In this document: positions 1 through 13,340 of the stretch, piece by piece
Layout: each line of letters begins with the position of its first letter
How positions within the stretch are numbered: position 1 is the stretch's first letter
DNA from: a virus
Length of the DNA stretch: 22,244 bases
Virus record (IMG/VR): IMGVR_UViG_3300043466_000438
Coordinates: 1-22,244 of that record
Reading direction: 5' to 3' (one strand)
Program-made: the position numbers and the translations under genes
The notes under the pieces: model-generated
Databases searched by the model: none
Seen by the model: the letters and a program-made list of their open reading frames with translations, nothing else
What the model was told of the DNA's origin: nothing

Positions 1-608
1 AAATAAAGATTAGGATCATATGGAACTTCTTCAATAAACTTTCCAAATGAAAACATGAAATGGGCTGAGAAGAAACGTGTGGGGATAGGCAGCTTGTGCA
101 TATCAATTTCTTCGACACGTGCCGGCAACATGAAGACAACGCCTTCTGGTGTAAATCTATCAAATGTTAAACGCCATACCTCTTTTACTCTAGATCCTGG
201 ATCATTGTCAGGATCATATGAAGCAACATAAGCTGTTAGAAGAGGCTTAGGATAACCGGCCTCAATTAGATCGTCCATCATCTTCTTACACTTTGTATCC
301 CAGCCGCGAACAAATCTATGGTGACTGTCCAGCTGAAGCGTATACTTTTCACCGCCGTAAGCTTCGTTTAATAAGTGTCTTGCCCAACATGTACCCTGAG
401 CATCTTTATAGTCTATATCAACGATACGAAATCGAGGATCATTGTGGAATTCTTCTAACGTATCCCACTCGTCATCTTTTGATCTTTGCCAGGCAATACC
501 GAATACAAGATTTTCTGGATTGTCCGCTCTCTTGATACAGTCGCGGATGGTAGGAAGAAGCTCTGGATCACGGTAGGCGGCAATTTGCACATAGATTTTG
601 TCAGACAT
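1..608 (-). CDS. GlcNAc-type glycosyltransferase, N-terminal part (cut by window edge)
   Basis: The minus-strand frame from the ATG at 606-608 is open to the left edge (202 codons). It begins MSDKIYVQIAAYRDPELLPT and has a D-S-H motif in the context LQLDSHHRFV near residue 100. Both are characteristic of the GlcNAc transferase family related to the Skp1 hydroxyproline GlcNAc transferase, a GT-A fold in which the D-S-H replaces the usual DxD metal-binding motif. Such enzymes occur in T4-like phages of marine and soil bacteria and may modify host envelope glycans, virion proteins or other acceptors; the acceptor cannot be read from sequence. A GGAG ribosome site (complement of 615-618) supports the start. 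It is the only minus-strand gene here and is divergent from the late block. The C-terminus is missing only because the window ends. Confidence 0.85.
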   Translation of the reverse strand, partial: MSDKIYVQIAAYRDPELLPTIRDCIKRADNPENLVFGIAWQRSKDDEWDTLEEFHNDPRFRIVDIDYKDAQGTCWARHLLNEAYGGEKYTLQLDSHHRFVRGWDTKCKKMMDDLIEAGYPKPLLTAYVASYDPDNDPGSRVKEVWRLTFDRFTPEGVVFMLPARVEEIDMHKLPIPTRFFSAHFMFSFGKFIEEVPYDPNLY

Positions 609-662
609 TATATACTCCATAATAATATACATAGCTATATATAATCCCGTTGGAGATGCCTT
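609..662. promoter_or_regulatory. Divergent intergenic region with TATAAT-like sequence
   Basis: This AT-rich gap separates the minus-strand glycosyltransferase from the plus-strand block. On the plus strand TATAAT lies at 640-645 and GGAG at 652-655 ahead of the ATG at 663. No clear -35 hexamer sits 16-18 bases upstream, so a promoter is plausible but not demonstrated. The run of alternating TA also gives -10-like sequences on the minus strand. Confidence 0.35.
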
Positions 663-857
663 ATGAGAAACTTTTTTAAAAATCGCTTTAAAATTTCAGA
701 CGAAAGAATTGCAATTTGCCGAGAATGTGATAAGTTTAATCGCGTAAACTCTCAGTGTTCGGAGTGTGGATGCTTCATGGATTATAAAACTTTGCTGCCT
801 TTTGTCTCTTGTCCTCTAGGTAAGTGGAAAGAGTTTGAGGACGAGAAAGATAAATAA
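663..857 (+). CDS. Small zinc-ribbon protein of unknown role
   Basis: This 64-residue basic protein has the cysteine pattern C-x2-C (CREC) followed by C-x2-C-x-C (CSECGC) and a later single Cys in FVSCPLGKW, consistent with a structural zinc site. Proteins with this ending (FV-x-CP-x-GKW) are common small hypothetical proteins beside structural genes in T4-like phages of cyanobacteria and alphaproteobacteria. A GGAG at 652-655 supports the ATG. Its last codons, Asp-Lys-stop, coincide with a late-promoter-like GATAAATA that probably drives the next gene. The function is unknown; nucleic-acid or protein binding is the usual guess for such ribbons. Confidence 0.7.
   Translation: MRNFFKNRFKISDERIAICRECDKFNRVNSQCSECGCFMDYKTLLPFVSCPLGKWKEFEDEKDK
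849..856 (+). promoter_or_regulatory. T4-type late promoter (GATAAATA)
   Basis: GATAAATA matches the T4 late consensus TATAAATA at seven of eight positions. It lies 19 bases before the ATG at 876, with AAGGAG at 863-868 between them, giving a very short leader. It overlaps the stop codon of the preceding gene. The same octamer recurs at 12775-12782. Confidence 0.55.
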
Positions 858-875
858 GTAAAAAGGAGAAATAAT

Positions 876-1598
876 ATGGCAGGTGCGTCGGCGGAAAGAC
901 AAGAGAATGCGGTAGTTAAAGCTATTAATGATGCTGTTAAAAAGAGTAAGAAAAAATCAGTAAATGTTGTTGCTGGTAACACGAAGTTGGATAATATCTC
1001 TCATGCTAAAAAGTATACCGGTAGACAGTCGAGTGGTTCCGAACCATATACTGACGTTGTTTTTTCCACTAAGAACAAGAAAGATATAAACTTATCATTG
1101 AAAGGCGAAGCAGCTCCTTCTTTGGCCGGTGGTGGTATGAGGGGTTTGGAAGCTATTATACCTGGCATTGCCGGTAAGTTTATGAAAGCCGCTCACAAAA
1201 AGCTTTTAGCCATGGGTCTAGAAGCTGGCGACAAAGTGCCAGACGTTTATGGTAAAATTTCAAGAAATAACAAAGAAAAGATTGTCGTTGGTACAAAAGC
1301 CATGGGAGGTCCGATTGATTACATGTATATTGGGCCTATGGATGTCAGAGCAAAATATGATGAGAAAACTAATATTCTAACTCTGAACGGCACACTAACA
1401 GAATCTAGCACATATGCCAAAACTCACGATCTGTATTTCAGGTTGAGAGCAAGAAGAGAAGATCAGACTTTTGATCCTGATGCTGAACAGGGTGGTATTC
1501 CAAAGATATATGGAAAATCACCGTCAAGAGGTGATAGCGCAGGTCGTATTGTCATAACAGATAGTGTCCCGAAAAGCGCAGTAATAGTGGAAGTGTAA
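876..1598 (+). CDS. Conserved phage protein, possible PD-(D/E)xK-like nuclease fold
   Basis: This 240-residue protein has a strong AAGGAG and ATG start and ends in a TAATG overlap with the next gene, which implies translational coupling. Around residues 57-77 it reads PYTDVVF, then a short spacer, then INLSLKG. An Asp after a Thr followed by a strand ending in S-L-K resembles the metal-site strands of some PD-(D/E)xK nucleases, in which Ser or Glu precedes the x-K. The rest (a glycine-rich turn near 105-110, a lysine-rich first 50 residues) is not diagnostic. It is the first gene after a late promoter and precedes a ligase-like gene and a HAD phosphatase, which fits a nucleic-acid role but does not establish it. 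It could equally be a structural protein. Confidence 0.6.
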   Translation: MAGASAERQENAVVKAINDAVKKSKKKSVNVVAGNTKLDNISHAKKYTGRQSSGSEPYTDVVFSTKNKKDINLSLKGEAAPSLAGGGMRGLEAIIPGIAGKFMKAAHKKLLAMGLEAGDKVPDVYGKISRNNKEKIVVGTKAMGGPIDYMYIGPMDVRAKYDEKTNILTLNGTLTESSTYAKTHDLYFRLRARREDQTFDPDAEQGGIPKIYGKSPSRGDSAGRIVITDSVPKSAVIVEV

Positions 1599-2833
1599 TG
1601 ATCAATTATCAAGACTATCTAACAGAATCAAAAGAAGGTAAGAACCTTCACTTAGAACACTTGGAGGACGAAGTACTCAATGGAGGAGTTTCTGGCACAA
1701 GAGGGGCAATATCCTTTCTACAGTCTCTTCGTGATATGCTCGCTGGTCATGCTACTGGTAGAACTGTCAACTTAACAACTAAATGGGATGGCGCACCCGC
1801 TATCTTTGCTGGTATCAATCCAGAGAACGGCAAGTTCTTTGTTGGTACCAAAGGCGTGTTTGCTCAAAATGCAAAGCTCAACTATACAAATGCTGATATT
1901 GATAAAAATCATCCTGGCGAAGGACTGAAAGCCAAGCTGAAAGTTGCTCTTAGATATTTGCCTGAACTAGGCATCAATGGCGTAATACAAGGCGATATGA
2001 TGTTTACCTCAGCAGATCTGAAGACTGAAACAATAGACGGCAAGTCATATGTTACCTTTCAACCAAACACAATAGTCTATGCAGTACCAGCCGAATCTGA
2101 TCTTGCAAGATCAATAACAAGATCCAAGATGGGTATTGTGTGGCATACAACATATGTCGGAAGAACAATGGCAGATATGGAAGCATCGTTTGGCGCTGAT
2201 ATCAGTAAGTTTAAAACCTCTATGAATGTTTGGTATCGTGATGCATCATTTGTTGATGCAACCGGCACAGCGACATTCACAAAACAAGAAACAGATACTC
2301 TTAACTCTACTCTGTCACAAGCCGGATCATTGTTCCGAACAATATCTGCACGTACTTTAAACACAATTGCGACAAACGATACCTACAAGATTGCAATCAA
2401 AGCATGGAATAATTCCAAAGTGCGCGAAGGAAAAGAGATTACAAATACCTCGCAGCATGTGGCTGGACTTATTGCTTCCATTGAAGAGAAGCTGAACAAG
2501 TCTATTCTGGAAGCAAAGAAAGCTGACACGAAGCAGAAACGTGAAATGGAAAAGAAAGTGGTAATGGAATTCTACAAGTCAAATAAAAATGAGCTAAAGA
2601 AGATTTTTGACTTGCAAAATCTCCTGGTTCGTGCTAAAAATATGATTGTGAGAAAACTACAACAAGTCCAAGATTCTGTTGGAACATATCTCAGAACAGA
2701 TTCCACTGGACTTAAAGTAACAGCACCTGAAGGATTTGTTGCTATCGATAAGATCGGTAATGCAGTTAAACTTGTAGATCGATTGGAATTCTCACAAGCA
2801 AACTTCAACGCCACAAAGAATTGGTCCAAATGA
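1598..2833 (+). CDS. Ligase-like nucleotidyltransferase with capsid-targeting-like N-terminus
   Basis: This 411-residue protein carries the signatures of the covalent nucleotidyltransferase (DNA/RNA ligase) superfamily: motif I K62-W-D-G65 (the K would be adenylated), a motif III-like G132-D133 in VIQGDMMF, motif IV E378-G-F-V and motif V K391-L-V-D-R. The gap of about 240 residues between motifs III and IV is much longer than in T4 RNA ligases and holds a Lys/Glu-rich helical stretch (about 290-340), so this is a divergent or expanded version. The first ten residues (MINYQDYLTE) match the layout of the T4 internal-head-protein targeting peptide with L-x-E at 8-10, suggesting packaging in the head. 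It overlaps its neighbours by TAATG upstream and ATGA downstream. Close relatives are annotated in T4-like phages only as unknown. Activity is inferred, not shown. Confidence 0.7.
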   Translation: MINYQDYLTESKEGKNLHLEHLEDEVLNGGVSGTRGAISFLQSLRDMLAGHATGRTVNLTTKWDGAPAIFAGINPENGKFFVGTKGVFAQNAKLNYTNADIDKNHPGEGLKAKLKVALRYLPELGINGVIQGDMMFTSADLKTETIDGKSYVTFQPNTIVYAVPAESDLARSITRSKMGIVWHTTYVGRTMADMEASFGADISKFKTSMNVWYRDASFVDATGTATFTKQETDTLNSTLSQAGSLFRTISARTLNTIATNDTYKIAIKAWNNSKVREGKEITNTSQHVAGLIASIEEKLNKSILEAKKADTKQKREMEKKVVMEFYKSNKNELKKIFDLQNLLVRAKNMIVRKLQQVQDSVGTYLRTDSTGLKVTAPEGFVAIDKIGNAVKLVDRLEFSQANFNATKNWSK

Positions 2834-3513
2834 AATATAGTGAATATCAGAAAAAGCATAAGAATGAAGTTCGCACATTGAATGTGTGGGACATTGATGA
2901 CACTTTAGGTCAGACATCCGCGAAAGTGAACATTAAGAAAAATGGTAAAGTGATCAAGTCTCTCGCAGCAGGCGAGTATAACAACTATAAGCTCGGTCAA
3001 GGCGAAGAACTAGACTTCTCTCAGTTTCGTTCTGGTAAAATCTTTCGTGATACGTTTAAGCCAATCAGCAATGTTCTAGATAGGGCTAAAAGTGTTGTTA
3101 TGAATCAATCGGAAAACTCCCACTCTATCATCATTACCGCCCGAGCAGACTTCGATGATCATAAAGAGTTCCTACAAGCTTTTCGTGATCATGGGTTTCC
3201 CATTGATCATGTCTATGTTGAACGCTCTGGCAACTTGGCCAAGCTTAAACCTAGCTCACCAGCACATATCAATAAGGGCGTTATCATAAAGAAGTATCTC
3301 GCTTCTGGTAAGTGGGATCGTATTCGTATGTGGGATGATCATGAGAAGAATCTGGATATACTATACAAGGTAGCTGCTATGTATCCTGAAGTGGAAGCTA
3401 TTGGATACCTGGTAAAAGATGGCAAAGTGAGTAAGTATATGCCCAAGAAAGCATTGGTCGAGAGTATCATTTCATTAACCAAATCAACTGTCAAACGTAA
3501 AATCTACGAATAG
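2830..3513 (+). CDS. HAD-superfamily phosphatase
   Basis: This 227-residue protein shows the HAD motifs in order: motif I D21-I-D23-D-T-L (nucleophile and general acid/base), motif II T103 in IIITARAD, and a motif IV acidic pair D169-D170 in RMWDDHEKN. The arrangement resembles the phosphatase half of T4 polynucleotide kinase and other phage phosphatases, so a nucleotide or RNA 3'-end substrate is reasonable but unproven. The ATG at 2830 overlaps the TGA of the ligase-like gene (ATGA). The frame continues upstream to a TTG at 2821, but the overlap start is preferred. Its partners are a ligase-like protein and a P-loop kinase, the set of activities needed to heal and seal nucleic-acid ends. 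Confidence 0.8.
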   Translation: MKYSEYQKKHKNEVRTLNVWDIDDTLGQTSAKVNIKKNGKVIKSLAAGEYNNYKLGQGEELDFSQFRSGKIFRDTFKPISNVLDRAKSVVMNQSENSHSIIITARADFDDHKEFLQAFRDHGFPIDHVYVERSGNLAKLKPSSPAHINKGVIIKKYLASGKWDRIRMWDDHEKNLDILYKVAAMYPEVEAIGYLVKDGKVSKYMPKKALVESIISLTKSTVKRKIYE

Positions 3514-3524
3514 ATATTAAAAAC

Positions 3525-3532
3525 ACTAAATA
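3525..3532 (+). promoter_or_regulatory. T4-type late promoter (ACTAAATA)
   Basis: ACTAAATA resembles TATAAATA (six of eight) and sits in the only sizeable gap of this block, upstream of the 968-codon gene at 3567. By T4 geometry initiation would fall near 3538, inside the left arm of the hairpin at 3534-3559. Confidence 0.45.
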
Positions 3533-3533
3533 A

Positions 3534-3559
3534 CTCTATAGATAAGAGTTCCTATAGAG
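3534..3559 (+). promoter_or_regulatory. Hairpin that sequesters the Shine-Dalgarno of the 3567 gene
   Basis: CTCTATAG (3534-3541) is exactly complementary to CTATAGAG (3552-3559), giving 8 bp with a 10-base loop. The right arm contains most of the AGAGG ribosome site (3556-3560), seven bases before the ATG at 3567. Read-through RNA would hide the site; RNA started from the late-type promoter at 3525-3532 would lack much of the left arm. A shorter alternative pairing, AACTCT with AGAGTT (3532-3537, 3545-3550), competes with it. Confidence 0.55.
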
Positions 3560-3566
3560 GGAAGTA

Positions 3567-6473
3567 ATGAAAGTTTTAGCAGTATATCCGGGGCGTTTTC
3601 AGCCCTTTCATAAGGGTCACGCTCAGGTATATCAGTGGCTGAAGAATAAGTTTGGCAGTGCAGTCATTGCCACGTCTGATAAAGTAGAAGCACCAAAGAG
3701 TCCTTTCAACTTTGCAGAGAAAAAGAAGATGATGAGTCTTGCGGGAGTGCCATCATCTGATATTAAACAAGTCACAAATCCTTACATTGCCCGCGAAATC
3801 CTCAAAGACTACGATCCAAAGACGACGGTTTTAGTATTTGCTGTGTCGCAAAAAGACATGGAAGAAGACCCTCGGTTCTCATTCAAGCCGACCAAATCTG
3901 GTAAACCCGGCTATCTCCAACCATATAAAGGCAATGAAAAGAAGCTGAAGCCATTTGGCGATCAGTCTATGCCGACTGGTTATGTAGTCGTTACGCCAAC
4001 ATTTACATTTGATGTTCTAGGTAAGCCGGCTACATCCGCATCCGAACTAAGAAAGCAGTTTGTATCTTTGGATGATAAGAAGCAAAAAGAGTTCATCAAA
4101 GATTTATTTGGCAAATACGATGCCTCTGTTCATAAGCTAATGAAGACCAAGATTGGCAATATGATGGGAAAAACGAAAACATTAAAGCAATTAAAGGAAG
4201 AAATTACACGAAAAGAACTGGCGCCTATGCTAGACTCTTTTGTGTCTTTTGCTTCTGATAAACTTGGTCTAAAATCTATGCCTTCTGTCAAATATAAGAC
4301 AGAAAATGATTCTTATAATTCATTTGCGGCCTATAATCCAGGTTCAAACGAATTGTCCATATCCACAGCCAATAGACATCCGATGGATATATTCCGTTCT
4401 GTCGCTCATGAGCTTGTACATCATAAGCAGAACGAAGATGGCAGACTAGGTAAAGATATTGCCAAAGAAGGTGCCACAGGTTCTGATATTGAGAACGAAG
4501 CCAACTCCGAAGCTGGCAAGATTATGCGTTGGTTTGCTAAATCTAATCCTGACATGTTTAGTAAAAGTTATGTCTCTGAGGAAACTATAAACGAAGGCAT
4601 CAATGATCCAGGTAAGCTTAAGGCTATCTTCTTAGCTGGTGGCCCAGGTTCTGGTAAAGACTATGTTATGAATTCGGTTCTTACTGGTGAAGGCTTGAAA
4701 GAAATCAATTCGGACGTTGCGTTTGAGTATCTAATGCAGAAGAACGATCTTGATCTTGAAATGCCAGACGAAGAAAGAGTTGAACGTGATATCGTTCGCG
4801 GCCGCGCGAAGAACATTACCAAAGAACAAGAAAGATTATCTTTGGCTGGACGTTTAGGTCTTATCATTAATGGTACAGCAGACGATCTGGAAAAAATCAA
4901 GACCATCAAGAAGAATTTGGAAAATGATGGTTACGAAACTATGATGGTATTCGTAAACACTTCCAATGAAGTATCGCGTGAGCGTAACGTTGAGCGCGGT
5001 AAGATGGGTAAGCGTAAAGTGCCTGATGGTACCGATAAGCAAGGTGTGCCTGATAATTCTCCAAACATTCGTCAAGAGAAGTGGGACTTAGCACAGAAGA
5101 ATATTGGTGAATTACAGAAGATTTTTGGCAATCAAAATTTTGCAGTGATCGACAATACAGCAGACATGCGTAAGGTTGCTCCAGAAGAAAAAGAAAAGAT
5201 TCAATCAAACTTCAATCGTGTTCGTCGCATGGCACAGCAATTTGTTCGTGCTGAGAATGCGAATCCAAATGCTAAGAAGTGGATTGAGCGCGAAGCACAG
5301 AAGCGTGGCATTACAAGCTATCAAGAACCAAAGAGATATAAAAGTCTCACTCAAATTCGTCAGGATGTTCCGCAAGTTGTGCATAAGCCAGACAATGACT
5401 TGATGACACAGGCCAGAAGACTTGGCTTATCTTATTATGGATTTGGTAGATTTGGTCGTAAAGTAGGTAACGAAAACAAAGTATTATTCCACAGTAAAGG
5501 TGGTAAACTAGTAAGGGTTCAAACAATGAACGAGGAAAAGAAGATGAAGAACGATCCGTGCTGGAAAGGCTACGAGATGATCGGTAAGAAAAAGAAGAAT
5601 GGCAGAGAAGTGCCAAACTGTGTGCCTGCAAATGAAGCATTCGAGCAGTTTATGCAGTCAATGGGCAATAAGCCATCCGGAAAGAAAATAAGTGTTAAAA
5701 AGAAACTAAATCAAGAAGCATCAGAAGCTTCGGTACAGGGCGGTATGGCTTTTGGCGCTGACGGTATTGGTCCAACTATTGCTGTACCTCGCGCGGGCAC
5801 TCCATATGGCTTTGGTTATGGTTCTGCATACTCAGTTGGTTTGTCAGAAAGTATTGTTACGTGGATGAAGTCTGAAAAGACGCAACAGAAGTTTGCAGAC
5901 AAGTATGGCGATCTTTGGGAAGATAAACTTGTTGAAGCTGCACTTCGTCTTGAAGAAGCTGGTTGTGGCTGTAAGCATACCGAAAAGAAATCGATGAAGA
6001 AGTTACGCGAAGGCATGGAAGGTGGAGTCAACAATATGAGTATGATACCAACTCAACGCAAGAGTGATGATATTCATGAAAAGACATTAACTTCCAATGA
6101 AACGAATAAGCGCGAAGAGATTGTTATGGCTCTGAAACGTAAGGGTATGCCAAAAGATAAAGCTTTTGCAATTGCCACAGCAAAAGCAAAGCAAGTTGCA
6201 GAACAGCAGCTTCATGAGCGTGGTGCTGATTCAAAAGGTCTTTACAGATCAACAGAGAGTGGTGCTGGACTGACAAGAAAAGGCGCAAAGCATTTTGGCA
6301 TTCAAACAGCAGTCACAACTCCGCCATCTAAGTTAAAGAAGGGCAGCAAAGCAGCCAAGCGCCGCAAGTCATTCTGTGCAAGAATGGGCGGAATGAAAGG
6401 CCCAATGAAAGACGAAAAAGGCAGGCCAACACGTAAGGCTATGTCGCTTAGACGTTGGAACTGCGAAGAATAG
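3567..6473 (+). CDS. Multidomain protein: HxGH nucleotidyltransferase, HExxH metallopeptidase, P-loop kinase, basic tail
   Basis: This 968-residue protein is a string of modules. Residues 1 to about 200 are a cytidylyltransferase/NMNAT-like domain with G-R-F-Q-P-F-H15-K-G-H18 and a late SASELR (about 157-162). Residues about 218-335 have H281-E-L-V-H285 followed by an E-N-E-A-N segment, as in zinc metallopeptidases. Residues about 345-545 are a P-loop kinase with Walker A GGPGSGKD (358-365), similar to phage kinases of the polynucleotide-kinase or zeta-toxin type. A Cys-containing segment follows (C665-W-K-G-Y to N-C-V-P near 687). Residues about 885-968 are a basic tail with RRKSFCARMGG and ending LRRWNCEE, a motif family common in marine T4-like phages. 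Tripeptides L/I-x-E lie between modules (209-211, 341-343, 759-761, 813-815, 882-884), as if for prohead-protease cleavage. It probably belongs to the virion-associated set. Confidence 0.8.
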   Translation: MKVLAVYPGRFQPFHKGHAQVYQWLKNKFGSAVIATSDKVEAPKSPFNFAEKKKMMSLAGVPSSDIKQVTNPYIAREILKDYDPKTTVLVFAVSQKDMEEDPRFSFKPTKSGKPGYLQPYKGNEKKLKPFGDQSMPTGYVVVTPTFTFDVLGKPATSASELRKQFVSLDDKKQKEFIKDLFGKYDASVHKLMKTKIGNMMGKTKTLKQLKEEITRKELAPMLDSFVSFASDKLGLKSMPSVKYKTENDSYNSFAAYNPGSNELSISTANRHPMDIFRSVAHELVHHKQNEDGRLGKDIAKEGATGSDIENEANSEAGKIMRWFAKSNPDMFSKSYVSEETINEGINDPGKLKAIFLAGGPGSGKDYVMNSVLTGEGLKEINSDVAFEYLMQKNDLDLEMPDEERVERDIVRGRAKNITKEQERLSLAGRLGLIINGTADDLEKIKTIKKNLENDGYETMMVFVNTSNEVSRERNVERGKMGKRKVPDGTDKQGVPDNSPNIRQEKWDLAQKNIGELQKIFGNQNFAVIDNTADMRKVAPEEKEKIQSNFNRVRRMAQQFVRAENANPNAKKWIEREAQKRGITSYQEPKRYKSLTQIRQDVPQVVHKPDNDLMTQARRLGLSYYGFGRFGRKVGNENKVLFHSKGGKLVRVQTMNEEKKMKNDPCWKGYEMIGKKKKNGREVPNCVPANEAFEQFMQSMGNKPSGKKISVKKKLNQEASEASVQGGMAFGADGIGPTIAVPRAGTPYGFGYGSAYSVGLSESIVTWMKSEKTQQKFADKYGDLWEDKLVEAALRLEEAGCGCKHTEKKSMKKLREGMEGGVNNMSMIPTQRKSDDIHEKTLTSNETNKREEIVMALKRKGMPKDKAFAIATAKAKQVAEQQLHERGADSKGLYRSTESGAGLTRKGAKHFGIQTAVTTPPSKLKKGSKAAKRRKSFCARMGGMKGPMKDEKGRPTRKAMSLRRWNCEE

Positions 6474-6514: not shown

Positions 6515-8437
6515 ATGCTTAACAAAAATGATCCATTAATTGGTGTAGTTCAAGAGGTAATGAAAAAGAACCAAGCTGAACGTGATGCAGTTAAATTAGT
6601 AAACGAAAAGTTCGGTATTCAAGACCGCAAGGTTCTTCCACATGAACGTCAGCATGAGTGGGATGCCGCTTATAAGTCTGTATTGACAGAGGGAATTAAT
6701 GTTCCTGATGTTTCTTACAAAAAAACAGAAAAGAATGGAAATTCTGATAGAACCATCATGACTAAGGACACAAAGAATGTCTTCAGTGGAGGAACCACGA
6801 CATATCATAACGTAGATAAGGACGTAAATAAGTCGGGCAGCGACTCGTTGACAACTAAGATAAAGAGTCAGGATCTAGGTAAAAACAAAGAACTAGGTGG
6901 TAAAGATTATAATATTTCAACATCGACAGTTTATAAAAGTAAGAAAGTAAATGAAGAAGAACTTGATGAAAAAGTCAAGATGACAAAGAAACAGTTTGCT
7001 AATCTTGATGGTAAACCAGAGTTCACAGCAAATGATCTAGCTCATGCAAGAGCAGGAACACATAAAAAGAAACCAATGGCGGAAGCCAATTCTATTATTA
7101 AGAAGTTCATCGCTAAAAAGAAGATGAACGAGGGTTTTAATAACCGCCATGATTCGAGCGTAACTGCTTCTGTTGAAGGACAGGTCGTGGCGGAGGCTGC
7201 AAAAGCCAGATCAGACTATGGTCTAGGTGCTGCGGCTGCTCCAAAAGATGCGGCCGCAGCAAGAGCAAAAATTGATACCGCAATGAAACCGGTTGCTGAT
7301 GTTGCAAAAGCTGTAATTCCTGGCGCAACCGCTTTTGATAAAGCAACTCAAGGCAACTATAAAGGCGCGGCTGTTGATGCCGGTCTTAGTTTGGCAGGCG
7401 GTGCTTTGGTAGGCGGTGCATTAAAAGCTGGTAAAGCAGTTTATAATGCAGTTAAAGGTGGCAGTAAAGCTGCTGCAGGATCATCAGCGGCCGCAGGCGC
7501 TACAAAAGCTCTTCCTGCACCTTCCGCTGTAAAACCTGTATCTCAAGCAGCAAGAGAACCTGCTTCTACGGCTGCTACAAAAGCACCTACTGCTGTTGAT
7601 AAGTTTATTTCAAAAGCAAGAGCAACTCCTGTATCACCTGCTGCTAAAGAAGGTGGTAGTGCTGCATCAACGGCGGCCGCAAATGTATCAAAGTATAGTA
7701 AGCCAGGCACTGCTGGTGGTAGATTTAGCGACAAACTTGCACAAGCAAGAAAAGGTAGTGAAAACTATGGACCAAGTAAAGGCGGTGTAGCTGTTAGAAA
7801 AACAACTCAACCCGCTACTGTAACTCGTCCGGGTGTTCCGGCTGTTGCTAATAGACCAGGTGTTCCGGCTGTTGCTAATAGACCAGGTCTTCCTGCTGTT
7901 GCAGGATCAGCAGCATCTACCGCTGCTAAGACAAGTAGATTTGGCGGATTAGGTAAAGCTCTTAAGTATGGTGGCGTTGCGGCGGCTGTTGGTGCAGCCG
8001 CATATGGATTGAAGAATAAGAATCAACCACCAGCAGCTCAAGCTAAACCACCAAAAGACCAAAGTAGAGTTCCTCAGTCAGGCGCTTTAGCAAAACCATC
8101 AGGAGCTACAGCACAGCCATATGGAATGAAAACACCCCAAAAACCAGCAGCACCGGCACCGGCACCGGCACCAGTCGCAGCTAAACCTGTCGCAGCTAAA
8201 CCTGTCGCAGCTAAACCTGTCGCAGCTAAGCCTGTTGCAGCTAAGCCTGTTGCAGCTAAGCCTGTTGCAGTATCAGCGGTAAGGTCTAAACCACAAACAA
8301 GAGATCAAAGAGATAACACTGTTGGTGCAAATGGTAAACCTACTAAAGGTCCGGGTGGTGTAAAATCAGGAACAACTATCAAACAGAAAGCTGCCGTTCG
8401 AGTAAAGCGTCCAGCTGGAACAGGTAGAGAAAAATAA
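6515..8437 (+). CDS. Large Ala/Lys/Pro-rich virion-associated protein
   Basis: This 640-residue protein has an N-terminal domain (about 1-60) starting MLNKNDPLIGVVQEVMKK with an L-P-H-E-R motif. This module is shared by many proteins of marine T4-like phages and is followed at 57-59 by L-T-E, a possible prohead-protease site. Residues about 250-320 form an Ala/Gly-rich helical hairpin (GNYKGAAVDAGLSLAGG) resembling a membrane-inserting or pre-toxin segment. The C-terminal third is low complexity: a near-duplicated nonapeptide with PAVANRPG, then PAPAPA and six VAAKP units, and a basic end RPAGTGREK. Lys/Ala/Pro tails of this kind occur in histone-H1-like proteins. A late-type promoter and AGAGGA precede it, and the next gene overlaps its stop (TAATG). 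The function is unknown; DNA condensation in the head or a virion ejection role are candidates. Confidence 0.7.
   Translation: MLNKNDPLIGVVQEVMKKNQAERDAVKLVNEKFGIQDRKVLPHERQHEWDAAYKSVLTEGINVPDVSYKKTEKNGNSDRTIMTKDTKNVFSGGTTTYHNVDKDVNKSGSDSLTTKIKSQDLGKNKELGGKDYNISTSTVYKSKKVNEEELDEKVKMTKKQFANLDGKPEFTANDLAHARAGTHKKKPMAEANSIIKKFIAKKKMNEGFNNRHDSSVTASVEGQVVAEAAKARSDYGLGAAAAPKDAAAARAKIDTAMKPVADVAKAVIPGATAFDKATQGNYKGAAVDAGLSLAGGALVGGALKAGKAVYNAVKGGSKAAAGSSAAAGATKALPAPSAVKPVSQAAREPASTAATKAPTAVDKFISKARATPVSPAAKEGGSAASTAAANVSKYSKPGTAGGRFSDKLAQARKGSENYGPSKGGVAVRKTTQPATVTRPGVPAVANRPGVPAVANRPGLPAVAGSAASTAAKTSRFGGLGKALKYGGVAAAVGAAAYGLKNKNQPPAAQAKPPKDQSRVPQSGALAKPSGATAQPYGMKTPQKPAAPAPAPAPVAAKPVAAKPVAAKPVAAKPVAAKPVAAKPVAVSAVRSKPQTRDQRDNTVGANGKPTKGPGGVKSGTTIKQKAAVRVKRPAGTGREK
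7835..7888 (+). repeat. Two tandem 27-bp coding repeats
   Basis: Two identical 27-base units (7835-7861 and 7862-7888), followed by a diverged third, encode repeats of V-P-A-V-A-N-R-P-G inside the 640-residue protein. They are in frame and likely to vary in copy number. Confidence 0.85.
8174..8263 (+). repeat. Six tandem 15-bp repeats encoding VAAKP
   Basis: Six 15-base units (GTCGCAGCTAAACCT and close variants) encode VAAKP six times. The first three are identical and later ones drift at third positions (GTT for GTC, AAG for AAA), so the protein repeat is conserved more strictly than the DNA. A PAPAPA stretch (about 8150-8173) precedes it. Confidence 0.9.
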
Positions 8438-8829
8438 TGAACAACAAAAAATTGGCGGCGATGATTAAATCTCTCCGTGAAGCCAAACAAAAACAGATTG
8501 GTTCGGGCGGATCATATAAAGGAAGTGGTGCGGATGTACAAGATCCTGCTAGTCCTAATAGAGCGCCCGACACATCAACAAAAGAAATTCATCATGGTGT
8601 AAAAGAAGAAACTTTGCATGAGTTTAAGAGAGGTGCTATAGCCACTGATTACAGAGTGGCTAAGAAATTAACAGCACCTCGTATGGCGTCTCAGTCTAAG
8701 TTAGGTCATCAAAGAAACAAACCCGACAGGTATAGATTTACTGAAGAAAAAAAAGAAAAATCTAATACCAAGTCAACTATGATAAATACTACACCAGAAC
8801 AAGATTCGGCTATGATAGGCACACAATAA
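8437..8829 (+). CDS. Small basic late protein, function unknown
   Basis: This 130-residue hydrophilic protein is coupled to the 640-codon gene by a TAATG overlap. It has no recognisable domain. The N-terminus MNNKKLAAMIKSLREAK has L13-R-E15 followed by Ala, a possible prohead-protease site of the L-x-E type, and a second L-x-E occurs near residue 60 (ETLHEF). The composition (Lys, Ser, Thr, Gln) and likely disorder resemble small internal or scaffold-associated phage proteins. It lies between virion-associated genes, so expression late in infection is likely. I do not recognise the family. Confidence 0.6.
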   Translation: MNNKKLAAMIKSLREAKQKQIGSGGSYKGSGADVQDPASPNRAPDTSTKEIHHGVKEETLHEFKRGAIATDYRVAKKLTAPRMASQSKLGHQRNKPDRYRFTEEKKEKSNTKSTMINTTPEQDSAMIGTQ

Positions 8830-8840
8830 GGAGAAAATAA

Positions 8841-9434
8841 ATGTCACTTTGGGGTAATTTAGATGGCAGAACTGGCAATAATAAGCCAAAGTTTGCTAAC
8901 ACTACATATAGAATTTCAAACTCTACAATCAACGGAAGCGCGGCCAATACTGCAAAGTTTTATGGTGCAACTTATGGCGTAAATGCCGAAGAAGCAGGTA
9001 ATACAGTAGCAGATGGTAAAAAAGTTGCTCACGCTGGTTGGGTATCACAGAAGATTGGCACAGGACCTGTCGCATCTATCGCCATTACAAGCGGTGGTCA
9101 GGGCTACAATGCCGCTGGCTTCTTGACAATCAGTGGTGGTGGTGATGGAACAATCAACGTTTCATATACAATTGCCAACTCACTAAACTCAATGCAATCA
9201 TATTCTTCAAATGCTCGTCAGAATGTAATCGCATCAATCACAATCAATAGTCCAGGTGCAGGATTCAACGTTGCTCCTACTGTAATCGCAGGCGGTTCTA
9301 ACATTGCTCCTGCTACATTCTCTGTAGGTCTTGGCGGTCGCGCAGGTCGCGTACAGTACGAAACCCTAGTTGCTATGGGTTCAATAACTGGCGATGATCC
9401 AGGCGATGACAAGTATTTCCCACAGAGCCCATAA
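8841..9434 (+). CDS. Virion structural protein (T4-like phage family)
   Basis: This 197-residue protein starts MSLWGNLDGRTGNNKPKF and ends with GRVQYETLVAMGSITGDD followed by a Tyr-Phe-Pro motif. Both ends match a family widespread in cyanophages and other marine T4-like phages and labelled virion structural protein. The middle is Gly/Ser/Ala-rich with repeated short beta-type segments (VASIAITSGGQGYNAAGF and VIASITINSPGAGFNVAP), two copies of one motif I-x-I-x-(S/G)-x-G-x-G-(Y/F). This suggests a beta-rich surface or decoration protein. AAGGAG directly precedes the ATG. Its exact place in the particle is unknown. Confidence 0.75.
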   Translation: MSLWGNLDGRTGNNKPKFANTTYRISNSTINGSAANTAKFYGATYGVNAEEAGNTVADGKKVAHAGWVSQKIGTGPVASIAITSGGQGYNAAGFLTISGGGDGTINVSYTIANSLNSMQSYSSNARQNVIASITINSPGAGFNVAPTVIAGGSNIAPATFSVGLGGRAGRVQYETLVAMGSITGDDPGDDKYFPQSP

Positions 9435-9453
9435 TAGAGGACGGCGGTAACCA

Positions 9454-10455
9454 ATGAAGAGATTTACAGAATATCTAAACGAAGATTTTGATCCGGCGGT
9501 ATTTAATTCTGATGGTGGTATTTCTATTAAAGATCCATCTGTATTAGATGCAATCAACTCTAATCTAGAATTGTCAACTGGTTGTGATTGTAGAACACCA
9601 TACATCGCACTTGAAGAGATTAGAAAGGTACTGGCCTATTATAAAATCTTTCTTCCAAAGAGTGTCTTTCTAGATCAAAATCACGGCAACGATGTTTTTG
9701 AGGTCTCTCAGTTTGGTGAAAAGATGGGAATGAATAATCAGGGAGAAGTTGTTTCCGCCAGCGACTCTCCACTTTTTGTTTACTTCGAATGGTCATTAAA
9801 CGAAAAAGGTATGTATGATGTATTTACATGTCTTTGTAACCAAGAAGAACTAGATGAAATTCTATCTGATTATGAATCGGAAGTAGAAAGTGATGAAGAA
9901 TTACAAGAAGAACATTCTATGGGTTCTCACTCCAAAATGCTTTATAAGCTAGTCAACAAAATGAAATCTGAAAAGCAATCAGATGACGTTGATTCCTATA
10001 TTGAGCATGAGAAGCAAGGTAAAACATTTACTCAGATGAATGAAGAACCTATGCCTGATCCTAAAAAGAAGATGGGTGCAAAGAAGGTAACACTTCCTAA
10101 CATGATGCGTAAAGAAGAAACTCTCAATGAACTTCGTGGTAAAGGATCAGTGAGTAAAGATGATATGAAAGATCATATCATGAAAAAGCATGGTGAGGCC
10201 TGGGAAAAAACTAGAAAGAAGCGCAAGAAAAATAAAAGCTCAGGACCAACCGATACAAGAGATGAAGACAAGCACAGAGATCGTCTTGGAAAAATGTACA
10301 AAAAGTTAGGTGAAGAAAAGCAGACTTATGATAATGAAAGAGCTTTTAAAGAAGTGCCGGCAAAAGAAACAAAGACGCCTACAACTTCAGCTTATCGAAC
10401 TGCAAGAAAACTAGCTCGTCAAGCAAAAAAGAAAGCAGAAGCTAAAAAGAAATAA
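9454..10455 (+). CDS. Candidate internal head protein with T4-like capsid-targeting peptide
   Basis: The first ten residues of this 333-residue protein, MKRFTEYLNE, align without gaps to the T4 internal-protein targeting peptide MKTYQEFIAE: aromatic at 4 and 7, acidic at 6, L/I at 8 and E at 10. Residues about 40-145 form a compact domain (IRKVLAYYKIFLP, VFEVSQFGEKMG, YFEWSLNEKGMYD) conserved in marine T4-like phages. A very acidic patch (about 130-155) follows, then a Lys/Arg-rich half ending in AKKKAEAKKK with further L-N-E or L-x-E tripeptides. A basic processed protein with a targeting peptide is what T4 IPI-III and Alt look like. AGAGGA at 9435-9440 supports the start; the next gene overlaps by TAATG. 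What the core domain does is unknown. Confidence 0.7.
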   Translation: MKRFTEYLNEDFDPAVFNSDGGISIKDPSVLDAINSNLELSTGCDCRTPYIALEEIRKVLAYYKIFLPKSVFLDQNHGNDVFEVSQFGEKMGMNNQGEVVSASDSPLFVYFEWSLNEKGMYDVFTCLCNQEELDEILSDYESEVESDEELQEEHSMGSHSKMLYKLVNKMKSEKQSDDVDSYIEHEKQGKTFTQMNEEPMPDPKKKMGAKKVTLPNMMRKEETLNELRGKGSVSKDDMKDHIMKKHGEAWEKTRKKRKKNKSSGPTDTRDEDKHRDRLGKMYKKLGEEKQTYDNERAFKEVPAKETKTPTTSAYRTARKLARQAKKKAEAKKK

Positions 10456-10841
10456 TGATTGAAAACTTGAATGATGAGAACTTCTTGTTATATGCAATGA
10501 AGTGCTATGACTCACCTAATGCTATAATGAGTGAATTTGAAGAAGACTTAAAGCGTATTAAGTATGTAAAGAGACTTATTAAGAGATACAAAACTAATGG
10601 GGAACTAAAAGAGAGGCTGATACTTAACCACATTATCATCCTCTCTAATGTTTTTGGAACTAGAAATGCTGTTAGAATGTTATTTTTCAAACTAGATGAA
10701 CAAGATTATGTTATACTAAAGACGTTTCTAATCTTTCTTGGTTACATGCCAGAAACAGTAACTGGAATCAAAGGTAAGAACATTCATTCGTATAATGTAT
10801 CCATTGACTTGTTTGTAGGTAAACGTCTTAGAGATATTTAA
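10455..10841 (+). CDS. Conserved helical protein of T4-like phages, unknown role
   Basis: This 128-residue, mostly helical protein contains MIENLNDENFLLYAMKCYD and GELKERLILNHIIILSNVFG, followed by a long hydrophobic stretch (VILKTFLIFLGYMPETV). This pattern is a conserved hypothetical family in T4-like phages of cyanobacteria and marine bacteria, usually located just before the lysis or structural genes. No catalytic motif is visible. It starts inside the stop of the 333-residue gene (TAATG), so coupling is expected. The hydrophobic segments look like buried helices rather than clear membrane spans. Confidence 0.7.
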   Translation: MIENLNDENFLLYAMKCYDSPNAIMSEFEEDLKRIKYVKRLIKRYKTNGELKERLILNHIIILSNVFGTRNAVRMLFFKLDEQDYVILKTFLIFLGYMPETVTGIKGKNIHSYNVSIDLFVGKRLRDI

Positions 10842-10851
10842 AGTTATTCAT

Positions 10852-11403
10852 ATGCTGGCTGACATAGCCAATATACCACGTTGTCAAGAGGTTGTCAATA
10901 CTAAAATGAAGTTAGTTAGAAAAAAGATCAAAGAGAATTTAGCAGGCGCAGGAACATCAGCAGATGGTGGAATGTCAGCTCCTTTCTCAGCTATGGGTCA
11001 AGAGATAATTGCTAGAAGAAAAGAAAAGCCAATTTCTCTAGGCAAGAATACTGCAATAGGAACATATGTTGATGAAGATGCGCCTGCGAATGCTGTTGGT
11101 GCAGGAACTGGTGTTGCAGGACTAACACCTAATAGCTTGCCTGGTCGACCTTCTGAATTAATGCCAGTAGTAAAGCGCGGCAAACCTTTTCTTGGTGTGG
11201 AAACATATATTGTTCCATCAAGAGTATTCAATCAAATTAGAGAAGCAAAGCGCAAAGGTAAACACTGGCGCAAATATCTAGATGAAGACGATACATTCCA
11301 TCACATACGTATGGAAGCAAAAAAGAATAAGAAGGGTGCTATTATTATAGAAGACGAAAACACAGGTGCGCTGTGTTTCGCAAAATATGGAAAAAACATA
11401 TGA
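10852..11403 (+). CDS. Conserved late protein, unknown role
   Basis: This 183-residue protein has a flexible Gly/Ala/Pro-rich first half (AGTSADGGMSAPFSAMGQE, NAVGAGTGVAGLTPNSLPG) and a conserved C-terminal domain (VFNQIREAKRKGKHWRKYL and GAIIIEDENTGALCFAKYGK) known from marine T4-like phages without assigned function. The start is uncertain. The ATG at 10852 has no clear ribosome site, and an in-frame ATG at 10906 begins MKLVRKKIKENLAG, which would again place I-x-E at residues 8-10, though its AAGAGG is 14 bases away. Its stop overlaps the peptidase start as ATGA. Confidence 0.65.
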   Translation: MLADIANIPRCQEVVNTKMKLVRKKIKENLAGAGTSADGGMSAPFSAMGQEIIARRKEKPISLGKNTAIGTYVDEDAPANAVGAGTGVAGLTPNSLPGRPSELMPVVKRGKPFLGVETYIVPSRVFNQIREAKRKGKHWRKYLDEDDTFHHIRMEAKKNKKGAIIIEDENTGALCFAKYGKNI

Positions 11404-11921
11404 CACATTGGCCATTACAACGCGATTGCGATTCCTTCTATGGAAATCCACGCGGTAAGAACGTAACACAACCATCAGCAAAATGGGAATCGGAATATCT
11501 GGTATTTTTTAAACCACCGTTTCGTATCACATACGCTGGCAAACCCGTAGCTCAATTCAAAGTAAACAAGAATTGTCTCGTTGGTTTCCAAGAAGCATTT
11601 AACAACTTACTCAAGGCCGCAGGCGGTAAACAAAAAACATTAGACACTTGGGGTGTATCAATCTTTGCTGGCTGTTATAACTATCGCTTGATGCGTGGTG
11701 GCAACAGCTTATCAATGCACTCATGGGGTTGTGCTATCGACCTCGATCCAGCAAACAACAGTCTCATGGACAATACTCCTCGTTTCAAACAATTTCCAGA
11801 AGTTCTGGATGCATGGTCAAGAACAGGAGCAGTTTGGGGCGGTGATTGGGATGGCGACAAAGACACACTAGACGAGCGCCGCTGTGACGGTATGCATTGG
11901 CAGTTTGCAAGATTAAGATGA
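11400..11921 (+). CDS. M15-family peptidase (endolysin-type)
   Basis: With the ATGA-overlap start at 11400 the protein has 173 residues. It carries the zinc site of D-Ala-D-Ala carboxypeptidase/endopeptidases of family M15: H107-S-W-G-C-A-I-D114 (the H-x2-G-x-A-x-D pattern) and the C-terminal G-M-H166-W-Q-F. The sequence W-G-G-D-W-D-G-D before the last histidine is typical of the VanY-like branch used as phage endolysins. The likely job is cutting cross-links in host peptidoglycan at lysis. No signal peptide is visible, so it needs the holins that follow. An upstream in-frame ATG at 11373 would add nine residues but lies inside the preceding gene. The next gene overlaps by ATGA. Confidence 0.85.
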   Translation: MTHWPLQRDCDSFYGNPRGKNVTQPSAKWESEYLVFFKPPFRITYAGKPVAQFKVNKNCLVGFQEAFNNLLKAAGGKQKTLDTWGVSIFAGCYNYRLMRGGNSLSMHSWGCAIDLDPANNSLMDNTPRFKQFPEVLDAWSRTGAVWGGDWDGDKDTLDERRCDGMHWQFARLR

Positions 11922-12220
11922 AAGAAGAAACTTGGCTGAAGTCTTATTGGAGACCAGCCATTGCATGGCAATACTTTGTTGTGTGTATATGCGACTTCAT
12001 TATATTTCCTTCGGTGTTCATGTATATTGTTAGAGAACCGTGGGATCCTATTACACTAAAAGAAGGCGGATTCTATCATCTGGCCATGGCAGCAATTATA
12101 GGTGTTGCTGCATGGACAAGAGGGCAAGAGAAGATTGTACAATTGATAGACGGCGGCGAAGAAGTGCAGAAGACAACTACGTCCATGACGCCGATAAACA
12201 GCAATAAACGAGGTAAATAA
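11918..12220 (+). CDS. Holin-like membrane protein
   Basis: This 100-residue protein has two hydrophobic spans, about residues 13-36 (IAWQYFVVCICDFIIFPSVF) and 52-66 (FYHLAMAAIIGVAAW), and a polar Thr/Ser/Lys tail. The opening WLKSYWRPAIAW recalls the R-P-x2-x-W start of phage holins of the three-span type. It sits directly after the M15 peptidase (ATGA) and before a second membrane protein (TAATG), the classic order of a lysis cassette. Holin function is inferred from size, topology and position. It could instead be an antiholin or cooperate with the next protein. Confidence 0.65.
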   Translation: MKEETWLKSYWRPAIAWQYFVVCICDFIIFPSVFMYIVREPWDPITLKEGGFYHLAMAAIIGVAAWTRGQEKIVQLIDGGEEVQKTTTSMTPINSNKRGK

Positions 12221-12783
12221 TGTTAGCATTAATAGCACCTTTTTTAGGAATTTTAGGAAGTTTACTGCCTTCCATTGTGAGAATATTTGAGCGTAAGCAG
12301 GAGTTAAAATATGAAGTTGAACTTACTAAGATCAAACTTAATGCTGCCGCAACACAGGCAAGCATACAGTATCATATTGAGGAGATTAAGGCTGACGCTG
12401 AGTCTCGACAATCAGCTCTTGATCATGATAAGTCTCTTGATGGTGGCAAGTTTATCAACGCACTACGAGCTTCTATCAGACCCGTTATCACCTATTCATT
12501 CTTTATTCTCTTTGTGGCCGTTAAATGGTCTGCGGCATATGTTATGATCAAGCAGGGTCAAGATATCCCAACTATGCTTGATGCTGTCTGGGATCCGGAC
12601 ACAATGTCTCTATTCTCTACCATTATCGCATTCTGGTTTGGTTCGCGCGTGATGGAAAAGCAAGAGAAGTTGGCCGCTGTTACAGCATCACAACAACCAC
12701 AACTCAATGTAAAAGTAATACCTAATAAAGCACCTGTTACTAAGGCTCCCAAGAAGCCTGCGGGAACAGGAAGAGATAAATAA
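12220..12783 (+). CDS. Three-span holin-family-like protein
   Basis: This 187-residue protein has an N-terminal hydrophobic segment (1-23, LALIAPFLGILGSLLPSIV), a charged helical stretch (25-85) and two further spans: about 92-112 (VITYSFFILFVAVKWSAAY) and about 127-143 (MSLFSTIIAFWFGSR). The pattern RASIRPVITY followed by FWFGSR matches the three-transmembrane holin family named for gene-transfer-agent release, well known in alphaproteobacterial phages. The basic tail ends PKKPAGTGRDK, almost the same as the end of the 640-residue protein. Its last two codons and stop form the late-promoter-like GATAAATA. Confidence 0.7.
   Translation: MLALIAPFLGILGSLLPSIVRIFERKQELKYEVELTKIKLNAAATQASIQYHIEEIKADAESRQSALDHDKSLDGGKFINALRASIRPVITYSFFILFVAVKWSAAYVMIKQGQDIPTMLDAVWDPDTMSLFSTIIAFWFGSRVMEKQEKLAAVTASQQPQLNVKVIPNKAPVTKAPKKPAGTGRDK
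12775..12782 (+). promoter_or_regulatory. T4-type late promoter (GATAAATA)
   Basis: This octamer is identical to the one at 849-856 and again coincides with Asp-Lys-stop of the upstream gene. It is 26 bases before the GTG at 12809, with TAGGAG at 12794-12799 between. Confidence 0.5.
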
Positions 12784-12808
12784 AACAAGAATATAGGAGT
12801 GAAGTGCT

Positions 12809-13282
12809 GTGTCCGAACAAGAAATTAAAGTTGATATTGAATTACTGAAAAAAGATGTAGTAACTATGTCAGCTTTATTAGAGAAATTCGACACTACGAT
12901 AGACAAGATGCAAGAGATTGCATCCAGCCTTTCTAGAATGGTATCTTTGCAAGAGCAAAGACTTGAGAACCAAGAGAAAACAACAGCGGAGATGCAGAGC
13001 GTTCTGGAAATGAGAAGAATAGAAACAAACAATAACATCAAAGATATTTACAATCGTATTAACACAGTGAACAAAGAACTGACCGATAAGATAGAAGATT
13101 CTGAGAAATCGATTCTGGCTGAACTACAAAAATTAAGACAAGAGATTCAAAAGGAAGATACCGGTATCTCTCGTCGCCTTGGGCAGATTGAAATGTGGAA
13201 ATATGGTGCAGCAGCCATCATTACATTCCTATTGTTCTTAATAGCAAACAACGCAATCAACATTGGTAAACTATTCGATTAA
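12809..13282 (+). CDS. Coiled-coil protein with C-terminal membrane anchor
   Basis: This 157-residue protein starts at GTG (12809), with TAGGAG nine bases upstream and no better ATG. Residues about 5-125 are a long Leu/Ile heptad-like helix with almost no Pro or Gly. Residues about 133-152 (YGAAAIITFLLFLIANNA) form one membrane span with a short tail. Such tail-anchored coiled coils follow holin genes in several T4-like phages. It may be a lysis accessory (spanin-like or holin regulator) or a membrane tether. A true spanin pair is not apparent: there is no lipobox or outer-membrane partner. It closes the lysis-type cassette, 58 bases before the primase. Confidence 0.65.
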   Translation: MSEQEIKVDIELLKKDVVTMSALLEKFDTTIDKMQEIASSLSRMVSLQEQRLENQEKTTAEMQSVLEMRRIETNNNIKDIYNRINTVNKELTDKIEDSEKSILAELQKLRQEIQKEDTGISRRLGQIEMWKYGAAAIITFLLFLIANNAINIGKLFD

Positions 13283-13285
13283 CCG

Positions 13286-13313
13286 TTGACTTTCTAACAC
13301 TACCTGATATAAT
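13286..13313 (+). promoter_or_regulatory. Sigma-70-type promoter for the primase operon
   Basis: TTGACT (13286-13291), a 16-base spacer and a perfect TATAAT (13308-13313) lie in the gap before the primase gene. Predicted initiation is near 13319-13321. It is the best consensus promoter in the window and marks the switch from late to DNA-metabolism genes. Confidence 0.75.
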
Positions 13314-13340
13314 GCCATCTATGTAACATTAGGTGGCATT
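13311..13340 (+). promoter_or_regulatory. Hairpin masking the primase Shine-Dalgarno
   Basis: AATGCCATCTA (13311-13321) pairs with TAGGTGGCATT (13330-13340) over 11 bp including one G-U, with an 8-base loop, ending right at the ATG. The right arm contains the AGGTGG ribosome site. The left arm overlaps the -10 box and ends at the predicted start point, so only RNA read through from upstream genes can form the full stem. Confidence 0.65.

Follow-up and report, generated by a model that had tools for sequence, protein, structure and literature searches.

P0001 is a plus-strand gene (positions 3567-6473) in a 22,244-base stretch of viral DNA, positions 1 to 22,244 of the IMG/VR virus record IMGVR_UViG_3300043466_000438, called the window below. 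With good confidence, we take its 968-residue product to be a polyprotein that a T4-like marine phage makes late as head cargo and cuts with a gp21-type prohead protease. The protein would be made late, taken into the prohead core and cut in its linkers after (L/I/M)-x-E. Residues 1-211 would be released as a nucleotidyltransferase, 212-343 as a zincin and 344-656 as a zeta-like kinase, together with several small basic proteins, and all of these would leave with the DNA on infection. The modular build, the joint motif, the exchange of modules at the joints, the leader-bearing separate genes and the protease in kin were computed here, and the virion presence of relatives comes from published mass spectrometry. 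Packaging, cutting and injection of P0001 itself we infer.

An initial annotation had proposed a multidomain virion polyprotein with L/I-x-E tripeptides at its domain joints. The open reading frame, which starts with ATG, and its length are exactly as described there; the polyprotein itself gains support from the predicted linker placement of the sites and from leaders seen in the sequences of separate-gene relatives. Pfam matches above cut-offs are CTP_transf_like (residues 6-93), Zeta_toxin/AAA_33 (348-488) and DUF6321 (899-964), so the nucleotidyltransferase and P-loop kinase modules are confirmed. Module 1 also matches NCBIfam TIGR00125 and models of NMN-type adenylyltransferases, well under the equivalog cut-offs, and NMNAT/PPAT chains of the PDB with weak E-values. 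The metallopeptidase-like module is supported as a zincin by its HExxH motif (HELVH) and a weak match to PHROG 87. The kinase (P-loop GGPGSGKD; Zeta_toxin score 33.9 bits) finds 4mde, 3q8x and 1gvn with Foldseek, the nearest being a bacterial polynucleotide kinase and zeta toxins, and thus has both the P-loop and the fold of a zeta-toxin-like kinase. The small C-terminal modules fall in PHROG families of unknown function. Small basic modules do occur as separate proteins, as had been claimed: a DUF6321 gene and a CWKGY gene are found in two relatives (L019 and L067; L numbers denote loci of relatives).

Motif placement at the module joints

The relatives comprise 250 loci from three IMG/VR scans and from genome searches, with fused and separate-gene homologues of the modules. 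Module anchors were picked by hand after reading the sequences, and the test was then repeated without hand choice. Joints were kept as non-redundant where at least 6 of the 15 upstream residues differ. Of 80 non-redundant fused joints, across five unrelated module types, 74 have the motif immediately ahead of the homologous module. Moved 1-12 residues further upstream, the same motif is found in 0-6 of the 80, except at offset 5, where doubled sites account for 22. Glutamate at P1 is present in 23/23 kinase, 17/19 DUF6321, 11/11 DLRxWF, 8/8 KNxPT and 17/19 zincin joints, and a hydrophobic P3 in 23/23, 16/19, 10/11, 8/8 and 17/19, respectively. Both positions have low entropy, P2 and P4-P12 are variable (about 2-3.4 bits in most sets), and the P1 codons include both GAA and GAG. 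The joints thus carry the L/I-x-E of T4-type gp21 substrates at the processed position, with L or I in most. For the kinase, the motif ends one residue before a conserved G-x-x-D in 23/23 fused contexts and 13/13 separate genes. Non-redundant fused DUF6321 copies have it at the exact place in 16/19 cases, and two more have it one residue off.

In the unbiased test, open reading frames with leaders were found by pattern (n = 83), and the first 60 residues after each leader were searched in all other open reading frames. This gave 127 internal copies, which are partly dependent, several queries being versions of one module. The motif lies exactly at the start in 43 and at most two residues away in 95, against a mean of 2.2 exact matches at random positions in the same proteins.

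In P0001, the tripeptides named at the outset (LKE 209-211, INE 341-343, LSE 759-761, LRE 813-815 and LHE 882-884) are all in place, and two further ones lie at joints, MNE 654-656 and IHE 836-838. At the position of MNE 654, relatives have LSE, INE, VNE or MNE ahead of DLRxWF or CWKGY modules. The module after IHE 836 recurs in L010, whose fused homologue has 1159 residues; it stands there in a neighbouring cargo gene and follows LEE/K (a slash follows the last residue of a motif or leader). That 922-residue neighbour is 49% identical to the DUF7218-like module of P0001 over 47 columns.

Structure prediction had been suggested as a check on whether the sites lie in linkers or in folded cores. 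An AlphaFold2 model from a 41-sequence alignment (mean predicted local distance difference test, pLDDT, 71.4) has values below 50 at residues 202-209, 334-343, 653-663, 799-839 and 881-888. INE 341, MNE 654, LRE 813, IHE 836 and LHE 882 lie inside these segments and LKE 209 at the edge of one, while LSE 759 directly follows the disordered stretch 696-757 without itself being below 50. The other [L/I]xE matches (377, 513, 783, 788 and 795) are in confidently modelled regions. Segments below 50 are touched by 6/7 joint sites versus 0/5 internal matches (p = 0.008), on a joint/internal split set by hand from domain limits, before the model for the sites first named and MNE.

Exchange between proteins also respects the joints. 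A ParB-like module has no motif as a separate leaderless gene (0/5; L012, L123, L128, L201 and L223) and has it in 5/5 fused arrangements, so the motif comes with fusion and not with the domain. These fusions join it to a HAD gene in L110, L202 and L216 (NLSE/E, DLSE/E and NLKE/N), place it after another N-terminal region in L250 (NLTE/S), or, for L008 and L121, put it at the border of modules 1 and 2 (QLKE/S), the L008 copy being flanked by QLKE at both ends. LSE, LKE or LTE stands shortly upstream, at a varying distance from the conserved core. L004, L005, L009 and L012 have another nucleotidyltransferase as their N-terminal enzyme, with the swap ending at QLKE or SLNE.

DUF6321 of the T7-like phages S-TIP37, P-GSP1, KBS-P-1A and HTVC168P starts with neither leader nor motif, as does that of two small Vibrio phages whose family is not in their records. 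It is established that T7-like phages have no S77 prohead protease. That the motif marks a conserved start of the domain and no cut site was also considered, and rejected: it recurs in five unrelated modules, is missing from T7-like DUF6321 and accompanies the ParB-like module in fusions only.

Two observations stand beside these results. Positions 5661-5699 (residues 699-711, AFEQFMQSM) form a degenerate internal leader; relatives have FESFIKE (L004) and FETFMEE (L002), which suggests that P0001 has lost the site at one of its joints. In the T7-like marine phages L254, L257 and L260, the DUF6321 gene lies in the head-assembly region, between or beside the scaffold and capsid genes, and DUF6321 may therefore be a head protein in T7-like phages too.

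Leaders, protease and virion content of relatives

T4 gp21 cuts after L/I-X-E, and in the T4 IPIII leader residues 4 and 7 serve targeting and residues 8 and 10 processing; Asp at position 10 of IPIII abolishes processing and leaves targeting intact (PMC9026906). Where relatives in IMG/VR have the modules as separate genes, these have leaders of the T4 capsid-targeting type. They end in [L/I]xE at the same position, peptidase genes included, which bears out the comparison originally proposed as a check. Examples are a kinase (L054, MKSFYSFLEE/GVNDP), the 93-residue DUF6321 protein of L019 (MKSFKEFLEE-KRGADSKG), a peptidase (L235, MKLKE/EITHKDL) and the S-CREM1 nucleotidyltransferase (MKRYTNFLSE). 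Kin of module 1 likewise have leaders in Melnitz (MKKFSEIIE/ARGD) and L079 (MISSFKHYLIE/E). The leader of the separate zincin B23 gp332 (MNYKQFLRE/STEKQ) is one residue shorter than the IPIII layout, and in several separate kinases a leader with a [LIMV]xE end has no aromatic residues at 4 and 7.

Genes for S77 prohead protease and gp23 are present in 6/7 related contigs. The gp23 proteins of the L008 and L010 genomes have LNE/AAPTN and LNE/SAPTN where T4 gp23 is processed, a site assigned by inspection.

As for virions, S-SM1 particles contain the GC190 cytidylyltransferase (PMC3037559). The S-PM2 ortholog of GC190 adjoins a GC71 gene, and P0001 likewise lies near a GC71 homologue. Mass spectrometry found 52 phage proteins in S-CREM2 particles (PMC10665884). 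We compared S-CREM2 proteins encoded at 1-50 kb and 100-150 kb, most of the shortest open reading frames being left out. The leader pattern is found in 7/15 detected non-structural virion proteins versus 7/86 undetected ones (p = 0.0007), and a strict 10-residue leader in 5/15 versus 0/86. Three of the seven detected bearers are hypothetical proteins; the others are a SAM hydrolase (MKDFDSFLEE), an APH kinase (MKRFDAFLTE), a cytidylyltransferase (MKNFSSFLTE) and a Cas9-like protein. In this phage group, then, the leader is a mark of virion cargo; the comparison says nothing on the cutting of a fused protein.

Close to its start, the Cas9-like virion protein of S-CREM2 (OR473000.1, gp12, 7704-10313) bears a targeting leader of T4 type, LRFASFMAE/A; this would account for its being in the particle. 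In L262 (S-CRM01, 9248-14249) the consecutive genes 131c-126c, including kinase 130c, have leader-like starts ending in hydrophobic-x-E (one FLE), and are apparently a whole cargo operon. A different leader, also with an L-x-E end, is seen in L265 (Agrobacterium phage Atu_ph07, 7-4611), where adjacent proteins start MRWEQLTE, MRWEQLNE and MKWNDLNE.

Competing readings and known systems

Several findings weigh against a cut head-cargo polyprotein. P0001 has no N-terminal targeting leader: it begins MKVLAVYPGRFQPFHKGH, the enzyme core, and inspection of 3513-3567 showed no hidden leader upstream of the ATG. The AlphaFold2 model is of modest quality (predicted template modelling score 0.36, 41 sequences). 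P3 is M or V at some joints, where descriptions of T4 gp21 allow L/I only. This 22-kb fragment does not include the prohead protease gene, and we found no proteomics of this phage or of any fused homologue. P4 is hydrophobic in 19/74 joints and P7 in 15/74, unlike the targeting residues of IPIII. P0001 has 11 [L/I]xE matches in total versus 7.35 +/- 2.4 in shuffles (p = 0.10). The initial annotation had expected chance matches and named placement at the joints as the signal, and the non-significant total and the exact placement in the fused contexts agree with this.

Two lines of argument were set aside. Tripeptide counting within P0001 alone was dropped as evidence, since the count is not significant. 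Whole internal leaders as targeting signals are weakly supported, because a hydrophobic P4 or P7 is uncommon at the joints.

P0001 could also act as an intact polyvalent effector, its L-x-E joints being functionless scars of leaders left by gene fusion. A resemblance to whole leaders persists at some joints, as in L008 (KSFKNLRENLNE/GINDP), and fits a recent fusion; in phage N4, the virion RNA polymerase enters the particle uncut (PMC5512222). Even decay would be expected of a scar, however, whereas P3 and P1 are fixed while their neighbours drift, and the leaderless ParB-like module gains the motif only on fusion; we therefore regard this as unlikely. A further candidate for the cutting, before or after injection, is the zincin embedded in the chain as module 2, in line with the processing that Iyer et al. 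predicted for polyvalent proteins (PMC5512222). This is improbable, as the same joint motif occurs in fusions that have no zincin by sequence reading (Synechococcus phage ACG-2014f, 839 residues; Methylophilales phage Melnitz, 650 residues; L013), fits the described gp21 specificity and is present in leaders of separate zincin-free proteins. We give slightly less credence still to a cytoplasmic multi-enzyme protein of infection, serving for example nicotinamide adenine dinucleotide (NAD) or nucleic acid repair. The absence of a leader and enzyme activities that make sense inside the cell speak for it, but the late-type promoter box, neighbours with targeting leaders and related cytidylyltransferases in virions do not agree with it.

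A head-cargo polyprotein resembles T4 cargo processing combined with a polyvalent protein. T4 IPI-III and Alt (PMC9026906; PMC5694885) are like the separate-gene relatives in having hydrophobic residues at 4 and 7, L/I at 8 and E at 10, and share the L/I-x-E cut motif and the gp21-type protease of related genomes. In T4, however, each cargo gene encodes a single protein with cuts at one or both ends, whereas P0001 has several enzymes, predicted sites between them and no N-terminal leader; for want of that leader we did not place it among the T4 internal proteins. Polyvalent proteins (Iyer et al. 2017, PMC5512222) likewise unite disparate activities in one phage chain, as P0001 does with nucleotidyltransferase, zincin, kinase and DUF6321; zincin, zeta-like kinase and ParB-like (L008) domains are kinds also in their list. 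They differ in that the joints of P0001 carry predicted sites for a separate prohead protease. The T4 core proteins gp22, gp67 and gp68 are cut by gp21 at several internal sites (PMC9026906), but they are scaffold or core rather than enzymes and their fragments are mostly expelled. In SPN3US and phiKZ (PMC10052503, PMC5694885), many proteins of the head cargo are prohead-protease substrates, with the cut placed after a short E-ending motif. In SPN3US this is A-x-E, and the identified cuts remove N-terminal propeptides instead of releasing modules, protease self-cleavage aside. Among open PubMed Central papers we found none that describes a prohead protease cutting a cargo polyprotein of a phage, though an earlier description elsewhere is possible; nor did searches of them find a paper on DUF6321, or anything on capsid targeting in cyanophages beyond one T4 review.

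It is reasonably likely that (L/I)-x-E serves as a joint code in T4-like marine phages: enzyme and DNA-binding-like modules would swap between separate genes and long chains, nearly every joint would keep a prohead-protease site, and a set of injected effectors would be packaged as one polyprotein and freed in the capsid. If so, the T4 internal-protein system extends from single cargo to polyproteins cut in the capsid, similar to those of RNA viruses but processed by the phage head protease. Among the uncharacterised proteins that marine T4-like phages (Kyanoviridae and kin) encode, the sequence rule ([L/I]-x-E joints plus MKxFxxFLxE leaders) would then predict head cargo and mature ends, and it already picks enzymes detected in S-CREM2 particles by published mass spectrometry, among them the SAM hydrolase, the APH-type kinase and the Cas9-like protein. 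The injected arsenal of abundant ocean phages would become directly testable. We speculate that the NMNAT-like enzyme and the kinase act on NAD or nucleotide metabolism in the host.

Promoter, neighbouring genes and feature coordinates

The late-promoter-like box occurs once in the window against a chance expectation of 2.2, so its count alone proves nothing. The box (CTAAATAM) is kept at about the same place in the fused homologues L002 and L005-L010, and in L004 and L012 it is replaced by TATAAATA, the T4 late box. This conservation and replacement suggest late expression of P0001. The window itself has no exact copy of TATAAATA.

Positions, residues, strand and support of the features of P0001 and its surroundings
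Feature	Position	Residues	Strand	Support or remark
Neighbour, T4-GC71 family	1598-2833		+	leader MINYQDYLTE/S
Late-promoter-like box CTAAATAA	3526-3533		+	33 bp upstream of P0001 start codon
Module 1, NMNAT/NadR-like nucleotidyltransferase, GRFQPFHKGH	3567-4190	1-208	+	Pfam PF01467
Predicted cut site LKE/E	4191-4199	209-211	+	relatives Q-[LI]-[KR]-E or SLNE, even with other N-terminal enzyme
Module 2, zincin-like metallopeptidase, HELVH (HExxH)	4200-4586	212-340	+	sequence; PHROG 87 weak
Predicted cut site INE/G	4587-4595	341-343	+	23/23 fused and 13/13 separate-gene kinases [LIMVF]xE; pLDDT below 50
Module 3, P-loop kinase, zeta-toxin/polynucleotide-kinase fold	4596-5306	344-580	+	Pfam Zeta_toxin; Foldseek
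Predicted cut site MNE/E, M at P3	5526-5534	654-656	+	relatives; pLDDT below 50
CWKGY module	5535-5660	657-698	+	PHROG 9737 and 4359; separate leader-bearing gene in L067, MKSFSKFVHEAKMKGPDPCWKGY
Predicted cut site LSE/S, ahead of helical module	5841-5849	759-761	+	kept in close homologues
Predicted cut site LRE/G in KSMKKLREG	6003-6011	813-815	+	relatives KS[VMI]KK[LI][KR]E; pLDDT below 50
Predicted cut site IHE/K	6072-6080	836-838	+	pLDDT below 50
DUF7218-like small basic module	6081-6209	839-881	+	weak Pfam DUF7218, below cut-off
Predicted cut site LHE/R	6210-6218	882-884	+	fused DUF6321 copies; pLDDT below 50
DUF6321 basic module	6219-6470	885-968	+	Pfam PF19846, 57.7 bits
Neighbour, 640-aa modular gene	6515-8437		+	
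Neighbour with leader	9454-10455		+	MKRFTEYLNE/D

Residues 61-153 of the 640-residue neighbour are a module also present in the P0001 homologue of L006, with [LV]xE on both sides. A ACTAAATAMCTCTATAG-like block is conserved upstream of P0001 (3526-3533) and of several homologues, possibly as a variant late promoter of the phage group. A HAD-type phosphatase gene at 2821-3513 of the window has a degenerate leader, MKYSEYQKK/HKNEVRTLNVWDIDDTLG; the equivalent position reads YLKE/HKNEV in L190 and MKTFKEFLEE/SSNEGLLNIFDIDDTL in L123.
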